A stretch of DNA of 59,528 nt from a virus: positions 1 to 59,528 of the IMG/VR virus record IMGVR_UViG_3300022822_000020, one strand, 5' to 3'. The notes under the pieces were generated by a model that worked only from the letters and a program-made list of their open reading frames with translations, had not been told where the DNA came from and did not search any database. Shown here piece by piece: positions 2,031 through 31,957 of the stretch. The translations under genes were made by a program, and so were the position numbers. Every line of letters starts with the position of its first letter. Position 1 is the stretch's first letter.

Positions 2031-4199
2031 ATGATTGTTATAGAAAAGCTGAAAGCTGACTTACTAAAAAGACAGCAGCTTTTAAGGGTAGATCGACATA
2101 TCCATACTGCCTTTTTAAAAGAAATAGATGCTGATGACTTGATTAGTATAGCGTATCCTTACATACTAAGAGGTCTTGAGAGAAAAGCAGCTATGGTAGA
2201 AATCATAGTACCTATTGGTAACGCTATACGGTTAAGGCAAAGTCTTAAAACAGATACGGTATCTGATGCTCAGGTAGGCTGGTTCATTGCTGTTTCTTTT
2301 ATTGAATGTAAGATTCTAGGTTACAGGCTAAAGCACTTGTATCGTAATGGTAAAAAGAATAAACACCAATCTTACTTTTTTACATTAAAAGACTGGAAAG
2401 CAATCAAAGAGCTATGGAATCAGATCTCTATTGAAAAGACTAACCTGTTTCCTACGAGAACAGTCCCTAGTGATTGGGAAGATCCTATCCATAAGACAGG
2501 TATACCTATAATTAAAAAGGGTCACCCGCAAGCACTTGCTAAGCTACAGAAGCACACTAACCCAATAAATTACGATGTCTTAAATAAACTTCAAAAAATT
2601 GGTTGGAAAATTAATACTGAAGTGTTTAGTGTTTATCAACAGTGTATGCGTATTGAAGAAGGTGAGAGTCCCTTTAAGTTCTCAAAAGAGATTGATGAGC
2701 AAAAGAAAAAATCATTATTAATTGAGGTTGATGCAATTGAACAGATAGCATTGTCTAACATTGGTTCTACCTTTTATCATATGTATAACTATGACTTTCG
2801 TGGTCGTATTTATACTAATACTGCGTTCTTGCATGAACAAAGTAGTGACAACGCAAAAGGCTTACTACTATTCAGTAGAGGCTACCCTCTGCTAGAGAAG
2901 GGTTATTACTGGTTAGCAGTGCATACTAGTAACTGTTATGGTAATGATAAGGTTAGCTTAGACGATAGGTATTTCTTTGTATGCGAGAACATGGGTTTAT
3001 TCCTATCGTATGCAACAGCCCCTATGCGTAATACAGATTGGATGAAGGCAGACAAACCATTTTCATTCTTAGCTTGCTGTTTTGAGTTACAGCATATCTT
3101 AGAGTTTGAAAGGGAGGGTAATAACATTGAGGATTACGTTTGTAGATTACCTATATACATTGATGGCTCTAATAATGGCGTACAACATCTTGTTGCAATG
3201 TCAAAGGACGAGACTATTGCCCACCTAGTTAATCTAGTCCCTTCTGAGCTACCCGGCGATGTCTACATGTATATCGCTAAATATGTTTGGGAAAAGCTAG
3301 CGGATAAGGCAAGTAAGCTTACACATCAAGAGAGAAATTCTTTTGAAGAAATTTATAACACAGCTATACAACTTCAAAAGGCTTACCAAGAATCTCCTGA
3401 AAAAAGCGAAGCTAAGGCATCTGCATACATGGCTGCTCAAGAATGGCGCAACAAAAATAGAGCTATCCGAGAAAAGCTTTACCCTGTATACTGGTTAAAT
3501 ATCGATAAAGCAAAAGATCAACGTAAAGTTGTTAAACGCAATGTTATGACGCTTGGTTACGGTGGCACAGCTTACGGTATGGGTCAACAAATCATTGAAG
3601 ACACCCGTGATATGTCAGAGTATCTACGTGATAAAGAACATCTCTGGGGTGCTTTACTCGGTAACCTAGTGTTTGAAACTTGTTACGAGAAGCTCGAAGG
3701 ACCTGCTAAGTTATTACGCCTGTTTCAAGATGTTGCTGCTAGAGCTAACGAAAGAAATGAATTTCTTGCATGGAAGTCTCCTGTAACTAACTTTCCAGTA
3801 ATACAAGGCTATAGGAAGCCAGTAGATAAAAGAACTAAATTAAGATACGGTAACGAGGAATTAAAAATTATTGTACAGGCTTGGGAAGAATCTACTATTG
3901 ATAAAGATTCTCAGAAGACAGGCGCAGCACCAAACATTGTGCATAGTCTTGACGCTGTACATCTTGCAATGGTGGTTAACGCTACACCCTATCCTGTTAC
4001 TGTTGTACACGATTCTTTTGGTTGTCACCCAACTAATATGGATCATTTGTTTAAGCTAGTAAGACAAGAGTTTGTTAATTTGTATGCACAATACCCGCTA
4101 CAAAACATACTCACTCAACTCGACTGCCTAGACTTACTACCCGAGCTAGGTAACTTAGATACAAGCTTGATACTTGAATCTGATTACGCATTTTGCTAA
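2031..4199 (+). CDS. T7-like single-subunit DNA-dependent RNA polymerase (722 aa)
   Basis: The enzyme transcribes phage middle and late genes from phage-specific promoters. The full single-subunit polymerase signature is visible: DFRGR (D255-R259), motif A DGSNNGVQH with catalytic D378, motif B VKRNVMTLGYG with K502 and Y510, HSLDAVHL, motif C VHDSFG with H660-D661, and a C-terminus ESDYAFC like the ESDFAFA of T7 RNAP. Only 254 residues precede DxxGR against about 420 in T7 RNAP, so much of the N-terminal promoter-binding and hybrid-separation domain is missing or replaced. The likely cognate promoters are the five 19-mers beginning at 4223. The SD is weak (TTAGG). Confidence 0.97.
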   Translation: MIVIEKLKADLLKRQQLLRVDRHIHTAFLKEIDADDLISIAYPYILRGLERKAAMVEIIVPIGNAIRLRQSLKTDTVSDAQVGWFIAVSFIECKILGYRLKHLYRNGKKNKHQSYFFTLKDWKAIKELWNQISIEKTNLFPTRTVPSDWEDPIHKTGIPIIKKGHPQALAKLQKHTNPINYDVLNKLQKIGWKINTEVFSVYQQCMRIEEGESPFKFSKEIDEQKKKSLLIEVDAIEQIALSNIGSTFYHMYNYDFRGRIYTNTAFLHEQSSDNAKGLLLFSRGYPLLEKGYYWLAVHTSNCYGNDKVSLDDRYFFVCENMGLFLSYATAPMRNTDWMKADKPFSFLACCFELQHILEFEREGNNIEDYVCRLPIYIDGSNNGVQHLVAMSKDETIAHLVNLVPSELPGDVYMYIAKYVWEKLADKASKLTHQERNSFEEIYNTAIQLQKAYQESPEKSEAKASAYMAAQEWRNKNRAIREKLYPVYWLNIDKAKDQRKVVKRNVMTLGYGGTAYGMGQQIIEDTRDMSEYLRDKEHLWGALLGNLVFETCYEKLEGPAKLLRLFQDVAARANERNEFLAWKSPVTNFPVIQGYRKPVDKRTKLRYGNEELKIIVQAWEESTIDKDSQKTGAAPNIVHSLDAVHLAMVVNATPYPVTVVHDSFGCHPTNMDHLFKLVRQEFVNLYAQYPLQNILTQLDCLDLLPELGNLDTSLILESDYAFC

Positions 4200-9186: not shown

Positions 9187-9738
9187 ATGTTTGATAACCT
9201 GAATAATATTAAGCTAGAAAAAGAAATCGGTCAACTTTTCTTGGAAATACTACAGAAAGAAGATCCAAACGCAGCACTTGCGGGTGGTGCATTACGTAAT
9301 TGGGATGAGGGAAAATCTTGTAACGATTTTGATTACTTTATGAATATGCCTTCTCATATGAGTCTAGGGCAGATGCGTAAAAAGTTAGAAGTTATTTGCG
9401 GTAGGTCTGTTAGTATTCTTTCAGATGAAGCATATCTATTCTCAACTGAAGCAAAGAAAGCTATCTCTGGTGTATTTGAAGTTCAATTACTTTCTAAGAC
9501 TGTTCAGATTATTGTGTTGAATAACATGCGTGTTGGGGAGTATATTTTTAAACACTTTCCAGTTAGCAATTCACAAATTTGGAGTTACGATTGTAAAAAT
9601 TTAGGCGTAATCAAATCAGACTTGTATGATTACGGTAAGAAATATAATTGTATTTTTGTATCTAAAGATATCTCTGCAACATACTACGAGAAAATCAAGA
9701 GCTACTATCCTAACAAAACAATGTTGTTTAGCACTTGA
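9187..9738 (+). CDS. nucleotidyltransferase-fold protein (183 aa)
   Basis: ATG 9187 follows AAAGGAAATAAA; the longer frame reading back into the polymerase gene is not used. The N-terminal part AALAGGALRNWDEGKSCNDFDYF matches the GG-x(n)-DxD pattern of the polymerase-beta/CCA-adding nucleotidyltransferase fold. It may transfer a nucleotide to an RNA or protein, or act as a minimal nucleotidyltransferase; the substrate is unknown. It overlaps the dCMP deaminase gene by four bases. Confidence 0.65.
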   Translation: MFDNLNNIKLEKEIGQLFLEILQKEDPNAALAGGALRNWDEGKSCNDFDYFMNMPSHMSLGQMRKKLEVICGRSVSILSDEAYLFSTEAKKAISGVFEVQLLSKTVQIIVLNNMRVGEYIFKHFPVSNSQIWSYDCKNLGVIKSDLYDYGKKYNCIFVSKDISATYYEKIKSYYPNKTMLFST

Positions 9739-10154
9739 AACACAAGAAATATGATATCCTTTACATGGATATTGCTAAACGGATAGCGCAGATGTCTTTC
9801 GCTGTAAAGCGCAAAGTAGGTGCTATTGCAGTTAAAGACGACAATATCCTAGGTTTTGGTTTTAACGGTATGCCAGCAGGTTTTAATAACACCTGTGAGC
9901 ATACTCTTGAAGATGGTAAATTAAAAACTAACACGGAAGTACTTCATGCAGAAACAAACCTAGTAGCTAAGCTATCAAGAAGTTCCTTAAGCCTAGAGGA
10001 CGCAACAGTATATGTTACAGCAGCACCTTGTATTAAGTGTGCAGTGTTGTTGTCACAGACAAGAATCAAACAAGTGTATTTTGATGAATATTTCTCAAAT
10101 GATGAGGGTATTTATCTACTAAACAAAGTCGGAATTGGAGTAAGTAAATTATGA
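9735..10154 (+). CDS. dCMP deaminase (139 aa)
   Basis: The enzyme makes dUMP from dCMP for dTTP synthesis. The zinc and proton-shuttle motif HAE is at residues 71-73, and PCIKC (98-102) gives the two other zinc ligands. FNGMPAGFNNTCEH is the typical substrate loop. The start is taken as TTG 9735, overlapping the previous stop, because the N-terminal helix (KYDILYMDIAKRIAQMS) is needed to match the family; ATG 9765 would truncate it. Confidence 0.92.
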   Translation: MKHKKYDILYMDIAKRIAQMSFAVKRKVGAIAVKDDNILGFGFNGMPAGFNNTCEHTLEDGKLKTNTEVLHAETNLVAKLSRSSLSLEDATVYVTAAPCIKCAVLLSQTRIKQVYFDEYFSNDEGIYLLNKVGIGVSKL

Positions 10155-11672: not shown

Positions 11673-13292
11673 ATGGGAAAGATAGTTCAGAAAGATCAAC
11701 CATGTTTATTGTGTACAAGTAGTGATGCTAGGCAAGTATATGATGATGGCGGATCTCATTGTTTTTCTTGCGGTAAACATTTTTTTGCAGATAACCAATT
11801 AACTAGCTTTGAGGAAACTACAGTGACTAACAAAAGGCTATCTCTTAGTGAGATTCAAGAGCTGAAGTCTAATACTTTTCATGATCGTAAGATTTCTAAG
11901 TTTGTAACTAACTTTTTTGAAGTTAAAGCAAGTTACGATGAAGAAGGTGAAATCGATACTCACTATTATCCCTACGGCGAATCAGAAATAACAAGCTATA
12001 AGATTAGAAAGCTACCCAAAGAGTTTTCGGCTACTGGTAAATTAGATACTCTTTTTGGTCAAAGTAAATTTAACGGCGGTAAACAGTTGATTATTACTGA
12101 GGGAGAGCTAGATGCTTTGTCTGTTGCTCAAGCTTGGTATGATAAACATAAAACAATTTATCCGGTTGTATCAATTTCAGGCGCTACTAATCTTAAGCCA
12201 TTGCTTACGTACCGAGATTGGATTCGTAATTTTGGTAAAGTAGTTATTTGGTTTGATAATGATGAAGCCGGTAAAAAAGCAGCTGAAGAAGCCGCAAAAA
12301 TTATTGGTGCTGATAAGGTTTATATAGCTAAAACTTCTGAGAAAGATGCTTCTGATACCTTAGCTAAATACGGTGATAAGGGTGTATTAAACGCAATCTA
12401 TGATGCTTCCCGCTGGAGCCCTTCCGGTCTTGTTAGCTCAGCCGACACATGGGATATTTATAAAGAAGAACAAGGTGCTGAGTATATACCTTATCCTGAA
12501 TTTGCGGGTGAGTTAAATAACAAGCTTTATGGTAGACGTTTAGGTTCTATTACAATGCTTACGTCAGGCACCGGTATGGGTAAGACTTCCTTTGTTAAAG
12601 AAGATCAATACCATTTACTTAAGACTACTGAAGACTTAATTGGTATTTGCTCACTTGAAGAATCTGTTGGTGAAGCAGTAAAAAATATCATGGCGCTGGA
12701 AGCTAATCAGCGTATTCAGTTACCTGATGTTGAGATTAGTGAAGAAGAAGAACGTAAATTATGGGAAGCTACAATGGGGACTAACCGCTTTGTATTCCTT
12801 GACCATCAAGGTAGCTTAGGTGACGAGTCCTTAATCAGTAAGATGGAGTACATGGCCCTTATGGGTTGTAAGTATATCTACCTTGATCACATTACTATCG
12901 CTGTTTCGGAATCAGAGGATGGTAAAGTTAACACAGCCATTGATAAAATGATGTCTGACTTACTTAAGCTAGCAAAGAGACACAATATATGGATTGGTGT
13001 AGTTTCGCATTTACGTAAAACAAGCACTAACCAAAAATCTTTTGAAGAAGGTGCAATACCCTCCGATGATGACCTAAAGGGTTCTGGTTCGTTAAAACAG
13101 GTACCTATGCAAATCCTTGCAATCTCAAGAAATAAAATGGAAACAGATGTGAATAAACGTAACACTTCTTACTTATGGATTCTGAAAGACCGATTCACAG
13201 GTCGCACAGGTCCAGCTGGTTCTTACCTGTTTAACGAACAGACAGGTAGGCTACAAAATAATAAGTTTGTTGAAGAAAGCTTTGACCTATGA
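11673..13292 (+). CDS. T7 gp4-like primase-helicase (539 aa)
   Basis: This single polypeptide primes and unwinds DNA. An N-terminal zinc ribbon (CLLC at the start, then HCFSC) recognises primer sites. The TOPRIM primase core follows (ITEGELDALS, then VIWFDNDEAG). The C-terminal DnaB-like helicase has Walker A SGTGMGKTS (K304) and Walker B YIYLDH. The length is close to T7 gp4A (566 aa). No strong SD precedes ATG 11673, so translation may be coupled to the upstream 58-aa ORF. Confidence 0.95.
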   Translation: MGKIVQKDQPCLLCTSSDARQVYDDGGSHCFSCGKHFFADNQLTSFEETTVTNKRLSLSEIQELKSNTFHDRKISKFVTNFFEVKASYDEEGEIDTHYYPYGESEITSYKIRKLPKEFSATGKLDTLFGQSKFNGGKQLIITEGELDALSVAQAWYDKHKTIYPVVSISGATNLKPLLTYRDWIRNFGKVVIWFDNDEAGKKAAEEAAKIIGADKVYIAKTSEKDASDTLAKYGDKGVLNAIYDASRWSPSGLVSSADTWDIYKEEQGAEYIPYPEFAGELNNKLYGRRLGSITMLTSGTGMGKTSFVKEDQYHLLKTTEDLIGICSLEESVGEAVKNIMALEANQRIQLPDVEISEEEERKLWEATMGTNRFVFLDHQGSLGDESLISKMEYMALMGCKYIYLDHITIAVSESEDGKVNTAIDKMMSDLLKLAKRHNIWIGVVSHLRKTSTNQKSFEEGAIPSDDDLKGSGSLKQVPMQILAISRNKMETDVNKRNTSYLWILKDRFTGRTGPAGSYLFNEQTGRLQNNKFVEESFDL

Positions 13293-13492: not shown

Positions 13493-13725
13493 CAAAAGAA
13501 AAACTAGAAAATTACTATAATTTAATTATTAAGAATTTTGAGGATGAAGACGAGATTGTTTACTTCTTAAATAAACCAGAGTTGTTGCGTAAATTCGATG
13601 ACAAGGATCGCGAGTGGCTAGTTATGAAATGGCTACATGAGCAAGGGTGGGTAGAAGTAATTGAAGACGCTCATCAATCTCCTGAAGTCATGGAACTAGG
13701 TTGGGAGACACCAGATGCTGCATAA
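13486..13725 (+). CDS. hypothetical protein (79 aa)
   Basis: This small, very acidic helical protein overlaps the previous gene by 7 nt and nrdA by 11 nt. Trp-containing segments (DREWLVMKWLHEQGW) suggest a folded helical bundle. Function unknown; the context is dNTP synthesis. Confidence 0.7.
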   Translation: MLTKEKLENYYNLIIKNFEDEDEIVYFLNKPELLRKFDDKDREWLVMKWLHEQGWVEVIEDAHQSPEVMELGWETPDAA

Positions 13726-15721
13726 CGGTATTGAGATTGACCTAATACGAGATGATTTACTAGCAGACTACTCTAAAAGTATGGTGCTAGAGTTTTATGC
13801 TGCCAAGGGTGAGACATCTCCGCAGCAAGTATACGCAAGAGCAGCAAAGGCTTGGAGCACTTACAAAGGTGTTACTGACTTTGAAATGGCTCAACGTATT
13901 TACGAATATGTATCTAAGAAATGGTTTATGTTTGCTTCTCCGGTGTTATCTAATGCACCTAATGAAGAGGGTACTGTAAAGGGGTTACCTATCTCTTGCT
14001 TCCTAGCCTATGTACCAGACACAGTAGAAGGCTTGATTTCGCACTCAAGCGAATTACGTTGGCTGTCTGTTATGGGTGGGGGTGTAGGCGGTCACTGGGG
14101 TGACGTTCGCTCAGTATCAGAGATTGCACCCGGTCCAATTCCATTCTTGCACACAGTTGATGCTGATATGACTGCCTATCGCCAAGGTAAAACACGCAAG
14201 GGTTCCTACGCTGCATACCTTGATATTGAGCACCCTGAGATTATTGAGTTTATGAGTTTGAGAGTACCTACTGGTGATAACAATCGTAAAGCCTTTAACA
14301 TCCATAATGCAGTAAACATCTCTGATGACTTCATGCAAAAAGTTGTTAATGATCTTGAGTATGAACTCATTGATCCAAAGAAAGGGCCAACAGGAGAATT
14401 CTTAAATGCTCGTAAAACATGGCAACAGCTATTAGAGATTCGTTTCCGTACTGGTGAGCCTTACCTTAATTTTATTGATGCAGCTAACCGAGGCTTGCCT
14501 GAAGCATTAAAGTCTAAAGGTTTAAAAATTCATGGTAGTAATCTATGTAATGAGATTCACTTACCAACAAATGAAGATCGTACAGCCGTATGCTGTTTAA
14601 GCTCAGTTAACCTAGAGTACTATGAAGATTGGAAAGATACGAACATGGTCAATGACTTGATTCGTATGTTAGATAACGTACTAGAATACTTTATTGAACA
14701 CTGTCCAGAAAGTTTATTGCGAGCTAAATACTCAGCAATGATGGAGAGATCTCTGGGTTTAGGAGCAATGGGTTTTCATAGCTATTTACAGCGACATAAT
14801 CTAGCGTTTAGTAGTAATAAAGCTAATATTCATAACCAAAATATGTTTAGCGATATTAAAACTAAAGCAGTTAACGAAACCAAAAAGTTAGCTGTTGAAC
14901 GCGGTGAAGCAGGGGATTTAGTTGGTTATGGTGTTCGTAATGCTCACCTACTAGCTGTTGCACCTAATGCTTCTTCTGGTATCATTTTAAGTACATCACC
15001 TAGCACAGAGCCGCATAAAGCAAATGCCTATACCCATCGTACTAGAGCTGGTTCATTTCTGGTGAAAAACAAGTATCTAACAAGGAAGCTTCAAGAGCTA
15101 GAAAAAGATAATGAAGAGGTATGGAATAGTGTTATTACTAACGGTGGTTCTGTAGCACAGCTAGAGTTCCTTGATGACCACACTAAAGCAGTGTTTGAGA
15201 CTAGCTTTGAGATTAATCAGTCTTCAATTATTGAATTAGCGGCTACTCGTCAGAAATTTATTTGTCAAGGTCAATCTGTAAATTTATTCTTCCCTGCGGG
15301 TATAAGTCGCGGGTATGTAAATAAAGTCCATTTAGACGCTTGGAAAAAAGGCTTAAAAGGTTTGTACTACTTACGTACAGAAGCTAAACAAAGAGCAGAA
15401 AATGTTTCTCAAGGTGTTGAACGTAATGCGTTAGCAGACAACAAAGAAACTATTATTTATGGTAAAAAGAATTGTCCATTTTGTGAGTCTGCAAAGGCTT
15501 TACTAGATCGACACAGTATTGTGTATAGTTATATAGATATCCAAGAAGCAGGTAAGACTGCTGCTGAAGTAACAGGACGAGCAGATGTTCGTACAGTACC
15601 CCAGATATATCTAGAGGGTCGTTATATCGGTGGTTTTGAGCAATTACAAAAAGAACTAGCCATTAAGGTTGATAATACTACAACGGAGGAATCAGATGAG
15701 TGTTTAGCTTGTCAAGGATAA
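13715..15721 (+). CDS. nrdA: class I ribonucleotide reductase large subunit with inserted glutaredoxin domain (668 aa)
   Basis: The enzyme reduces NDPs to dNDPs. Active-site elements seen are C95 (GLPISC), N276-C278-E280 (SNLCNEI), C293 (second redox Cys) and the radical-transfer Y551-Y552 (GLYYLRT). The ATP-cone of cellular NrdA is absent. After residue ~570 comes a complete glutaredoxin domain: YGKKNCPFCESAKALL with redox C587/C590, TVPQIYLEGRYIGGFEQL. After it, the protein ends in DECLACQG (C663, C666), the C-terminal redox tail of NrdA. The reductant domain is thus placed between core and tail. nrdB follows within 2 nt. Confidence 0.95.
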   Translation: MLHNGIEIDLIRDDLLADYSKSMVLEFYAAKGETSPQQVYARAAKAWSTYKGVTDFEMAQRIYEYVSKKWFMFASPVLSNAPNEEGTVKGLPISCFLAYVPDTVEGLISHSSELRWLSVMGGGVGGHWGDVRSVSEIAPGPIPFLHTVDADMTAYRQGKTRKGSYAAYLDIEHPEIIEFMSLRVPTGDNNRKAFNIHNAVNISDDFMQKVVNDLEYELIDPKKGPTGEFLNARKTWQQLLEIRFRTGEPYLNFIDAANRGLPEALKSKGLKIHGSNLCNEIHLPTNEDRTAVCCLSSVNLEYYEDWKDTNMVNDLIRMLDNVLEYFIEHCPESLLRAKYSAMMERSLGLGAMGFHSYLQRHNLAFSSNKANIHNQNMFSDIKTKAVNETKKLAVERGEAGDLVGYGVRNAHLLAVAPNASSGIILSTSPSTEPHKANAYTHRTRAGSFLVKNKYLTRKLQELEKDNEEVWNSVITNGGSVAQLEFLDDHTKAVFETSFEINQSSIIELAATRQKFICQGQSVNLFFPAGISRGYVNKVHLDAWKKGLKGLYYLRTEAKQRAENVSQGVERNALADNKETIIYGKKNCPFCESAKALLDRHSIVYSYIDIQEAGKTAAEVTGRADVRTVPQIYLEGRYIGGFEQLQKELAIKVDNTTTEESDECLACQG

Positions 15722-15722
15722 T

Positions 15723-16670
15723 ATGTCACTACTACAATTTTCAAAAACATACAAGCCATTTTCACAAGAATGGGCTGTAGATCTAACTAAAAAGCATGAA
15801 GAAATTCACTGGGTCGAAGAAGAAGCAGATTTGTCAGAAGACGTCAATGACTGGCGTATCAAACTCACAAGTCAAGAAAAAGAGTTCATTACTCACATTC
15901 TACGGTTGTTCACTCAAGGAGACGTTCAAGTTGGCCAAAACTATTATGATTACCTTATTCCGAAGTTTAAGAATAACGAAGTCCGAGTTATGCTTGGTTC
16001 TTTCGCTGGTCGCGAAGGCACACACCAGCGAGCATATGCGCTTCTAAATGACACGCTAGGGTTACCTGATGAAGAATATCATAAGTTTCTTGAGTATAAA
16101 GAAATGTCAGATAAGATTGATTTTATGTCTGATAATGATACAACTTCACAAACAGGTATTGCTTTAGCATTAGCTAAAGGTGTATTCAATGAAGGTGTAG
16201 GCTTGTTCGCTTCATTTGTAATGCTGCTTAACTTGCAACGTTTTGGTAAAATGAAAGGCATGGGTACTATTGTTGAATGGAGTATTCGGGATGAGACTTT
16301 ACATGTAGAGGGTGGTGCAAAGCTATTTAAACAGTTTTGTGCTGAACACCCACGTATTATTAACGATGAACTTAAATCAAAGATTTATGCATTGGCAACA
16401 GTAGCAGTAGAATTAGAAGATAAGTTTATTGATCTTGCTTTTGAATCTAATACTGTTCAAGGTTTAACCTCAGAAGAAACAAAGCAGTATATCCGCTTTA
16501 TTGCAGATAGGCGCTTACTACAGCTAGGTCTAAAGACTATCTTTAAGGTTAAGGAGAATCCTCTGCCTTGGCTAAATTGGATCTTAAACGCAGTTTCTCA
16601 TGATAACTTTTTTGAGAAGCGAGTAACAGAATATTCCGTAAATGGGATGGTAGGAGACTGGGAATGGTAA
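15723..16670 (+). CDS. nrdB: ribonucleotide reductase small subunit (315 aa)
   Basis: This is the ferritin-like radical-generating subunit. Likely di-iron ligands are D67, E98 and H101 (REGTH), E157 (FNEGVGLF), E191 and H194 (RDETLH). D67-E98 (31) and E157-E191 (34) match E. coli R2 spacing, and Y105, four residues after H101, is the expected radical tyrosine (Y122). The protein is about 60 residues shorter than E. coli NrdB, mainly between ligands 3 and 4. The C-terminus GMVGDWEW is probably the peptide that docks on NrdA. Confidence 0.95.
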   Translation: MSLLQFSKTYKPFSQEWAVDLTKKHEEIHWVEEEADLSEDVNDWRIKLTSQEKEFITHILRLFTQGDVQVGQNYYDYLIPKFKNNEVRVMLGSFAGREGTHQRAYALLNDTLGLPDEEYHKFLEYKEMSDKIDFMSDNDTTSQTGIALALAKGVFNEGVGLFASFVMLLNLQRFGKMKGMGTIVEWSIRDETLHVEGGAKLFKQFCAEHPRIINDELKSKIYALATVAVELEDKFIDLAFESNTVQGLTSEETKQYIRFIADRRLLQLGLKTIFKVKENPLPWLNWILNAVSHDNFFEKRVTEYSVNGMVGDWEW

Positions 16671-17066: not shown

Positions 17067-17481
17067 TAAGTTAATAGAGAAATATAAAGAGCTTAAGGGT
17101 TTAGTTATTTCTATTGACGAATTAACAGCAGAAAGTGAAGAACTAGCATACGAGTTATTTCTTAATGGCTCAAAGGTTATTGTACCGCATAGAAGCTCTC
17201 TTGACGCGAAAAGAACTTCTGATTCTCTTAGCACGAAAATTGCGAGACTATCTGGTTCAGCTTTACGATATCAAGTATCTAATCACGCAAGCGTGTATCA
17301 ACAAAAAGCGGACTTAATGATCTGTTTCAACAAAGGAAAATTCGATGAAAAATATAGCGGAGCAAAACAGTTCTACTACGTTGAAGACTATAATGTCACA
17401 AATGAAGAGTTCTCGGAAACCAGTCAGCAAGACGAATCGAAACCTAAGAGGGGGCGTAAGCCAGGAACTAGAACTCTTTGA
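17050..17481 (+). CDS. hypothetical protein with AT-hook-like tail (143 aa)
   Basis: The N-terminal half is alpha/beta with RSSLDAKRTSDSLSTKIARL. The C-terminus KPKRGRKPGTRTL contains an RGRKP AT-hook-like DNA-binding motif, and that part overlaps the ClpP-like gene in another frame for 137 nt. The middle segment QKADLMICFNKGKFDEKY is hydrophobic. No family recognised; DNA binding through the tail is inferred. Confidence 0.6.
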   Translation: MTTIYNKLIEKYKELKGLVISIDELTAESEELAYELFLNGSKVIVPHRSSLDAKRTSDSLSTKIARLSGSALRYQVSNHASVYQQKADLMICFNKGKFDEKYSGAKQFYYVEDYNVTNEEFSETSQQDESKPKRGRKPGTRTL

Positions 17482-18001
17482 TCAGGGTGTATTAACCCTT
17501 TGCGATGAGATTTCTTTAGAGTCAGCAATGCCTATTGCTAATGCGCTCCTTGAATATAACTTAATGGATGAGAGAGATGCACCACCGCATATTACTTTGT
17601 TCGTTAATTCTACTGGGGGTGATTTATTCGCCACATATCATCTAATTGATATGATCAAGCAATCGGACATACCAGTTCACACTTTAGGTATAGGCTGTAT
17701 TGCTTCTGGTGGTATTATGTTGTTAATGGCTGGCAAAAAGGGTCATCGTTTTGTTACTGAAAACACTTACTTAATGAGTCATCAGTATTCCACCGGTGTA
17801 TTTGGTAAAGAACACGAGCTGCGTGCTTCAGTATACGAGCTAGAGTTGCAATCTAAACGTATGGTTAATCACTATGTTAAGTGTACAAAGAAGTCTGAAG
17901 CTTATGTTCGAAAGCATTTGCTGCATCAATCAGATATTAGTATTAGTCCCCAAGATGCCGTAAAACACGGTATTGTGGATAAAATCTTAGCAGTGTATTA
18001 A
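17345..18001 (+). CDS. ClpP-like serine protease (218 aa)
   Basis: The protein has the ClpP/crotonase fold with a likely catalytic triad S121 (GCIASGG), H146 (LMSHQ) and D197 (SDISISPQDAV). The 25- and 51-residue spacings are nearly those of E. coli ClpP (25 and 49). PHITLFVNSTGGDL corresponds to the oxyanion-forming loop. AAAGGAAA before ATG 17345 supports this start despite a 137-nt overlap; ATG 17393 or 17402 would remove much of it. It lies in the DNA-metabolism operon, far from the capsid genes, so a host-directed or regulatory proteolysis role is more likely than prohead maturation. Confidence 0.88.
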   Translation: MKNIAEQNSSTTLKTIMSQMKSSRKPVSKTNRNLRGGVSQELELFDQGVLTLCDEISLESAMPIANALLEYNLMDERDAPPHITLFVNSTGGDLFATYHLIDMIKQSDIPVHTLGIGCIASGGIMLLMAGKKGHRFVTENTYLMSHQYSTGVFGKEHELRASVYELELQSKRMVNHYVKCTKKSEAYVRKHLLHQSDISISPQDAVKHGIVDKILAVY

Positions 18002-31222: not shown

Positions 31223-31957
31223 ATGCCAAGAACTCGAAAGATGACAAGACGTGACCGTGTGGAAGACCAGCGTATGTTGGGTGATATGGGTGTTCAAGTA
31301 GAACAAAAACCAAGAACACCAAGACAATTCCACATTGAACCTATGAACGGTAAGCAAGAGAGGCTGTTACAAGCTATTCGAAATTACCCTATTACGGTAA
31401 CTATTGGTAGTGCAGGTACAGGAAAGACATACTGTAGTACTTCCCAAATAGCTAACTTGTTCCTTTCAGGAAAATATGAAAAGATCGTATTAAGCCGTTC
31501 CAACGTAGGTACGGGCAAGAGTATTGGTGCTTTCCCCGGCACCGTACAAGATAAGATGGCACCGTGGTTGTTACCTATTACTAGTGTTCTAGAAAAGAAC
31601 TTTGGTATGGGATTCTACAAGTACTTAACATCAAAGAATGTTATTGAAGTCCAGCCCCTAGAGACTATTCGGGGACGTAGCTATGAAAACTCTCTTGTTA
31701 TTGTTGATGAATGTCAGAACTTAACATTAGAAGAATTAAAAGCTATTACAACTCGACTTGGTGAAAACTCCAAGATGGTATTGTGTGGAGACCCTGCTCA
31801 GTCAGACACCTCTAATGGCTCTGGTGTATTACGCTTGGTAGAGCTATGCCATCGCAACAACATCGATATCCCAATTATTAGATTCACATCAGACGATGTG
31901 GTTCGCTCAGACATTGTAGGGCGCTTAGTCAAGATGTTTGAAAAAGAAAACGTGTAA
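31223..31957 (+). CDS. phoH: PhoH-like P-loop ATPase (244 aa)
   Basis: An NTP-binding protein of the PhoH family: Walker A GSAGTGKT (K68), Walker B LVIVDECQN, and the conserved MVLCGDPAQSD. GSGVLRLVEL follows as in other PhoH proteins. It is cytoplasmic; its substrate (RNA or protein) is not settled. SD AAGGGGA precedes the start. It lies between terminase and portal genes. Confidence 0.92.
   Translation: MPRTRKMTRRDRVEDQRMLGDMGVQVEQKPRTPRQFHIEPMNGKQERLLQAIRNYPITVTIGSAGTGKTYCSTSQIANLFLSGKYEKIVLSRSNVGTGKSIGAFPGTVQDKMAPWLLPITSVLEKNFGMGFYKYLTSKNVIEVQPLETIRGRSYENSLVIVDECQNLTLEELKAITTRLGENSKMVLCGDPAQSDTSNGSGVLRLVELCHRNNIDIPIIRFTSDDVVRSDIVGRLVKMFEKENV

Follow-up and report, generated by a model that had tools for sequence, protein, structure and literature searches.

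The active site of class I ribonucleotide reductases (RNRs) is re-reduced through a C-terminal cysteine pair, which is itself reduced by thioredoxin, glutaredoxin (Grx) or NrdH (PMC6187632). The main text of that study (Rozman Grinberg 2018) lists Grx fusions on NrdA, NrdB, NrdD and NrdJ and reports, among viruses, grx::nrdA in two and Grx on NrdB in 24. It also describes the Grx::ATP-cone::NrdB protein of Facklamia ignava, whose fused Grx efficiently reduces the RNR to which it is joined, acting mainly by a dithiol and more slowly by a monothiol route. Grx::NrdB fusions, proven biochemically, and the two viral grx::nrdA cases are thus already known. Class I C-termini have been described as disordered with a double-cysteine motif (PMC9669993), glutaredoxin is unmentioned in two family-wide RNR analyses (PMC9531940, PMC9669993), and a 2013 survey of phage RNRs brings it up solely because it gives rise to false NrdH hits. 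The shuttling of the NrdA tail between the active site and an external redoxin has been poorly seen structurally because the redoxin complex is transient and the tail disordered. Where reductant and tail are covalently joined, this step becomes directly testable.

Here we describe such an arrangement in an IMG/VR virus record of 59,528 bases, referred to as the window. Its source is a marine-type phage, with the following backbone genes:

2031-4199: N4-like RNA polymerase
9735-10154: dCMP deaminase
11673-13292: primase/helicase
17345-18001: Clp-like protease
31223-31957: PhoH

Like the Facklamia protein as presented in the 2018 main text, the window RNR carries a dithiol Grx on a class I subunit. 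In Facklamia, however, the Grx is N-terminal on the small subunit together with an ATP-cone, whereas in the window it lies inside the tail of the large subunit, in which Pfam matched no ATP-cone. The N-terminal placement of the described NrdB fusions is therefore not that of the window Grx, which occupies residues 577-652 of 668. The two grx::nrdA viruses share with the window a Grx on a viral class I catalytic subunit, and their layout may coincide with it; the main text of that paper gives neither virus names nor domain position. Within the open-licence papers covered, there appears to be no description of the position inside the tail, of how often it recurs, or of the rule that either subunit may carry the Grx.

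Anatomy of the NrdA-Grx protein

The nrd genes and the residues discussed below are listed here, all on the plus strand. The E. coli names C225, C439 and C462 follow the correspondence established for the family.

13715-15721, +: nrdA with in-tail glutaredoxin, 668 aa; single ORF with Pfam and PHROG NrdA matches
13715-15382, +: residues 1-556, catalytic core of the class I NrdA; Pfam and structure match
13997-13999, +: C95, equivalent to C225 of the E. coli active-site disulfide; unchanged across 57/57 aligned relatives
14546-14548, +: C278 of NLCNE, equivalent to the thiyl-radical cysteine C439 of E. coli; invariant, 57/57
14591-14593, +: C293, equivalent to C462 of the E. coli active-site disulfide; invariant, 57/57, the adjoining C294 not
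15365-15370, +: Y551-Y552, radical-transfer tyrosine pair; invariant, 57/57
15383-15442, +: linker 557-576 (RAENVS..VER.AL conserved), from the alignment with Melnitz NrdA; pLDDT <50 at 557-575
15443-15670, +: glutaredoxin domain, residues 577-652 (PF00462)
15473-15484, +: Grx active site C587-P-F-C590; both Cys invariant in 50/50 fused sequences
15593-15601, +: T627-V628-P629, the cis-Pro loop at the glutathione site of the Grx; T/S-V/L-P in 50/50 fused sequences
15629-15634, +: G639-G640, Grx glutathione site; invariant in 50/50 fused sequences
15671-15718, +: flexible tail 653-668 with redox pair C663-x-x-C666 (ECLACQG); pLDDT <50; both Cys present in all 50 aligned fused sequences and in all 75 distinct tails
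15723-16670, +: nrdB, encoding the 315-aa radical-generating subunit, which lacks a Grx domain (PF00268, E=2.8e-70)

The preliminary description had given the order as NrdA core, Grx (C587/C590) and tail cysteines (C663, C666), and its coordinates, frame and residue numbers proved exact. The open reading frame contains no internal stops, and the fusion reads as one polypeptide. Pfam matches the barrel (Ribonuc_red_lgC, E=3.6e-103) and all-alpha (Ribonuc_red_lgN, E=2.6e-11) domains of NrdA, and the best PDB fold match of the core is the class Id alpha subunit of F. johnsoniae (6dqw_A), with a TM-score of 0.94 on the target. In addition to the residues listed, N276 and E280 of the NxCxE radical loop are invariant in 57/57 aligned relatives. 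By its cysteine set, tyrosine pair, tail pair and barrel fold the protein is thus recognizable as a class I RNR catalytic subunit. Its partner NrdB, encoded by the adjacent gene, matches PDB chain 9dws_A with 490 bits, far above every other structure, so a solved structure exists for a close relative; our literature search found no publication describing 9dws.

Structure prediction had been proposed as a check in the preliminary description. AlphaFold2, run on a 57-row alignment, gives a model of the window NrdA with a mean pLDDT of 85.5, in which a confident core and a confident Grx domain are joined by linkers predicted to be disordered (557-575 and 653-668, pLDDT <50). The chain thus runs from the core through ~20 flexible residues to Grx 577-652 and from there through ~11 flexible residues to C663xxC666. 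The Grx part of the model has strands and helices in the order expected of a thioredoxin-like fold, and Pfam matches PF00462 at residues 580-638 (E=1.3e-14). The insert scores 65 bits with the NCBIfam model GRX_bact (cut-off 90) and 30 bits with the NrdH model TIGR02194 (cut-off 85.75), and an NrdH identity was rejected. From its CPxC, TVP and GG motifs and its predicted fold, the insert is identified as a dithiol glutaredoxin, and its glutathione site is largely conserved. The nearest solved structures to the window Grx are those of E. coli Grx3 (1fov) and Grx1 (1ego, 1qfn), the latter known to reduce NrdA. The C-terminal pair of E. coli NrdA is likewise reduced by Grx, but there Grx1 is separate and diffusible.

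The unfused NrdA of Melnitz phage ends in RTETSQRAENVSQKVARDALKD...EECVACQG, and its window counterpart reads RTEAKQRAENVSQGVERNALAD, followed by the Grx and then by ...DECLACQG. Because the unfused protein matches on both flanks of the insert, the Grx interrupts the redox tail itself. All 61 distinct tails of the window type have a spacing of 37 from LYY to the first Grx cysteine. The case for a rigid dock that this constant length might make is weakened by the Melnitz alignment, in which linker 557-576 is common to fused and unfused relatives, and by the predicted disorder of the linker.

Recurrence and origin of the in-tail insertion

A tblastn search with the junction found the layout in phages C48C1, PhiW-14, nACB2, SH-Ab 15599, S-TIM5/54/61/66 and S-CBWM1. 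In an IMG/VR scan all of the best 80 loci (80/80) carry a Grx CPxC followed by a terminal CxxC, so that the number of fused loci in IMG/VR is at least 80; a PhiW-14-type query against viral contigs added almost no new loci. Both cysteine pairs are kept in all 75 distinct fused tails examined, and every one of these has a dithiol CPxC Grx site, none a monothiol site. The median pN/pS is ~0.09 for Grx plus tail and 0.10 for the core (25 close pairs, not all independent), and by this measure Grx and tail are under purifying selection. The in-tail layout is recurrent and widespread in phages and not a one-off. The placement, called unusual in the preliminary description, does stand out beside cellular NrdA and beside published fusions with an N-terminal Grx; among phages it does not.

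Bacterial and archaeal genome contigs yielded, among the best 80 matches listed, a single match across the whole junction (L159). This is a 142 kb contig in a Sphingobacteriales MAG that carries the same NrdA-Grx, and it looks like a phage contig because its neighbour genes match phage families. We therefore rejected a bacterial origin of the fusion.

The proteins of Delftia phage PhiW-14, phage C48C1 and Acinetobacter phages nACB2 and SH-Ab 15599 have the same order as the window protein, with core, linker, a Grx bearing the TAAEVTG motif and a CxxC tail, although the PhiW-14 and Acinetobacter phage NrdA are just 42-44% identical to it. Those of nACB2 and SH-Ab 15599 are much longer than the window NrdA, and nACB2 has an intein-like insert at the active-site loop. 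Intein-like inserts occur in the phage NrdA of loci L003, L005 and L010; the first two are split at the NLC active-site motif, and the third is annotated as a hedgehog/hint domain protein. Cyanophages S-TIM5 and S-CBWM1 likewise have a Grx between the core and the terminal CxxC, but their NrdA belong to a distant clade and their Grx lack TAAEVTG and group apart; this tail Grx is possibly a separate insertion.

In the core tree, tail Grx occur in three places, the window/C48C1, PhiW-14/Acinetobacter and S-TIM5/S-CBWM1 clades; the tree requires three changes, of which its starred branches force at least two. The Grx tree places the S-TIM5 type in its own supported clade (99/99) and joins the PhiW-14 type to the window type (76/90, not starred), and it does not reject a single clade of all tail Grx (AU p=0.25). 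One origin for all tail insertions is thus disfavoured by the core tree but not by the Grx tree, and from the two trees we consider two independent origins of the in-tail placement likely. The Grx on the NrdB of Melnitz-type phages forms a separate clade in the Grx tree, and therefore a simple hop of one Grx copy between subunits does not look right.

Grx fused to one subunit or the other

The closest unfused NrdA clade is that of Methylophilales phage Melnitz with its sister loci. As in the window, there is one Grx in the nrd operon; unlike in the window, it is joined N-terminally to NrdB and falls in a different Grx clade. This sister group, with a Grx-free NrdA, comprises loci L006 and L239-L318. 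The Melnitz-1 record annotates the Grx-NrdB as 'hypothetical protein' and calls its class I NrdA a 'vitamin B12-dependent' RNR.

After duplicate removal, a complete nrdB was present at 82 distinct NrdA-Grx loci, and at none of these does NrdB bear a Grx (0/82). The 72 loci with a Grx-free NrdA and a complete nrdB comprise 68 of the Melnitz type with NrdB-Grx, two with a separate nearby Grx and two with no Grx. These loci were gathered with both fused and unfused queries, so that their frequencies mean little, and few clades underlie the either-subunit rule, the counts being non-independent events. In the loci sampled, the fused Grx sits on NrdA or on NrdB and never on both, a simple pattern in which either subunit may bear the one fused copy. 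At two loci with NrdA-Grx (L031, L072) there is in addition a separate Grx-like ORF of 82-88 aa, and the 59,528 bases of the window encode no second Grx and no thioredoxin. In the cultured phages HTVC019P, AD45, CRP-143 and T5S1, which are unfused, the flanks read contain no Grx; since several unfused relatives thus show none nearby, this enzyme family does not strictly require a Grx encoded by the phage. A third arrangement occurs in Pseudoalteromonas phage J2-1 (L007:2995-5514), where an NrdA of 839 aa begins with the Grx.

A proposed tethered reductant and its alternatives

The window NrdA-Grx is a real and functional-looking protein. We consider it quite probable that its in-tail Grx is a tethered, GSH-fed, dedicated reductant by which the tail dithiol is recharged inside the holoenzyme. 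Turnover would oxidise the active-site pair C95/C293, which the terminal C663/C666 dithiol would reduce, becoming a disulfide in the process. The Grx, ~11 residues upstream, would then reduce the C663-C666 disulfide through C587, with C590 resolving, and would be reloaded by host glutathione, glutathione reductase and NADPH. The ~20-residue linker before the Grx and the ~11-residue tail after it may provide the slack for visits to the active site and then to the Grx. The gain would be a very high local concentration of reductant, and free host redoxins would not be competed for during phage DNA synthesis. The architecture, the constancy of both cysteine pairs, the purifying selection and the restriction of the Grx to one subunit are observed; we infer the route of the electrons, the supply by glutathione and a transfer inside one alpha2 holoenzyme.

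The preliminary description had placed the reductant on the same chain as the tail, and this is backed by the invariance of both cysteine pairs and by the sister group with its Grx on NrdB; on these grounds an on-chain reductant appears the most economical reading. To call the enzyme independent of the host would be too strong, because the Grx requires host glutathione, glutathione reductase and NADPH; the claim that lends itself to testing is independence from free host redoxins. More tentatively, and with slightly less than even confidence, we propose that phage RNRs have repeatedly placed a dithiol Grx at one point of the holoenzyme, at least twice independently in the same NrdA tail slot, giving a one-chain relay of three dithiols (Grx, tail, active site) in which re-reduction would be intramolecular and would not depend on free host thioredoxin.

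A variant of the tethered reductant would have the Grx act in trans, reducing the tail of the partner alpha subunit, or the tail serve the partner active site. Class I NrdA is dimeric, the yeast Rnr1 tail can work on an adjacent chain, and the NrdB-borne Grx of the sister group necessarily acts between subunits; yet the cysteine pair of the same chain is only ~11 residues from the Grx, so that contact in cis looks easy, and we regard action in trans as possible but rather doubtful. It is very unlikely that C587/C590 reduces the active site directly and that C663/C666 is vestigial. Here the spacing is suggestive, as C587 lies 37 residues past LYY and the tail cysteines of unfused proteins of the Grx::NrdB group lie at 34-42, and profiles align the Grx CxxC onto the tail CxxC. 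The equal spacing, however, is accounted for by the conserved linker shared with unfused relatives, none of the 75 distinct tails or the 50 aligned sequences has lost the terminal CxxC, and a folded 75-residue domain is unlikely inside the active-site cleft.

The Grx might instead serve mainly in deglutathionylation, protection or cofactor supply, with a host thioredoxin or Grx attending to the tail. Grx proteins have several roles, and foreign RNRs often cross-react with host thioredoxins, as the main text of the 2018 study notes (PMC6187632); but the location of this Grx in the reductant tail, seen in several clades, and the dithiol CPxC of all 75 tails make such a job unlikely. That nrdA and an adjacent grx were joined by chance read-through or in assembly is a negligible prospect: the two genes commonly adjoin in phages (L008, L009, L358), but the tail cysteine pair lies 3' of the Grx and the layout is found in more than 80 contigs and several cultured genomes, a recurrence across separate contigs that refutes a chance or assembly fusion.

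The tethered reductant, if it works as proposed, suggests that many marine phages link dNTP supply to host glutathione and not to free thioredoxin. Annotation can conceal the arrangement: the 604-position NCBIfam NrdA model NF006577 ends on the Grx CPFC, which it aligns with the tail CxxC, and thereby hides the true tail pair. Position 643, the equivalent by alignment of E. coli Grx1 D74, is acidic in most relatives and Q in the window, and the glutathione affinity of the window Grx may therefore differ.
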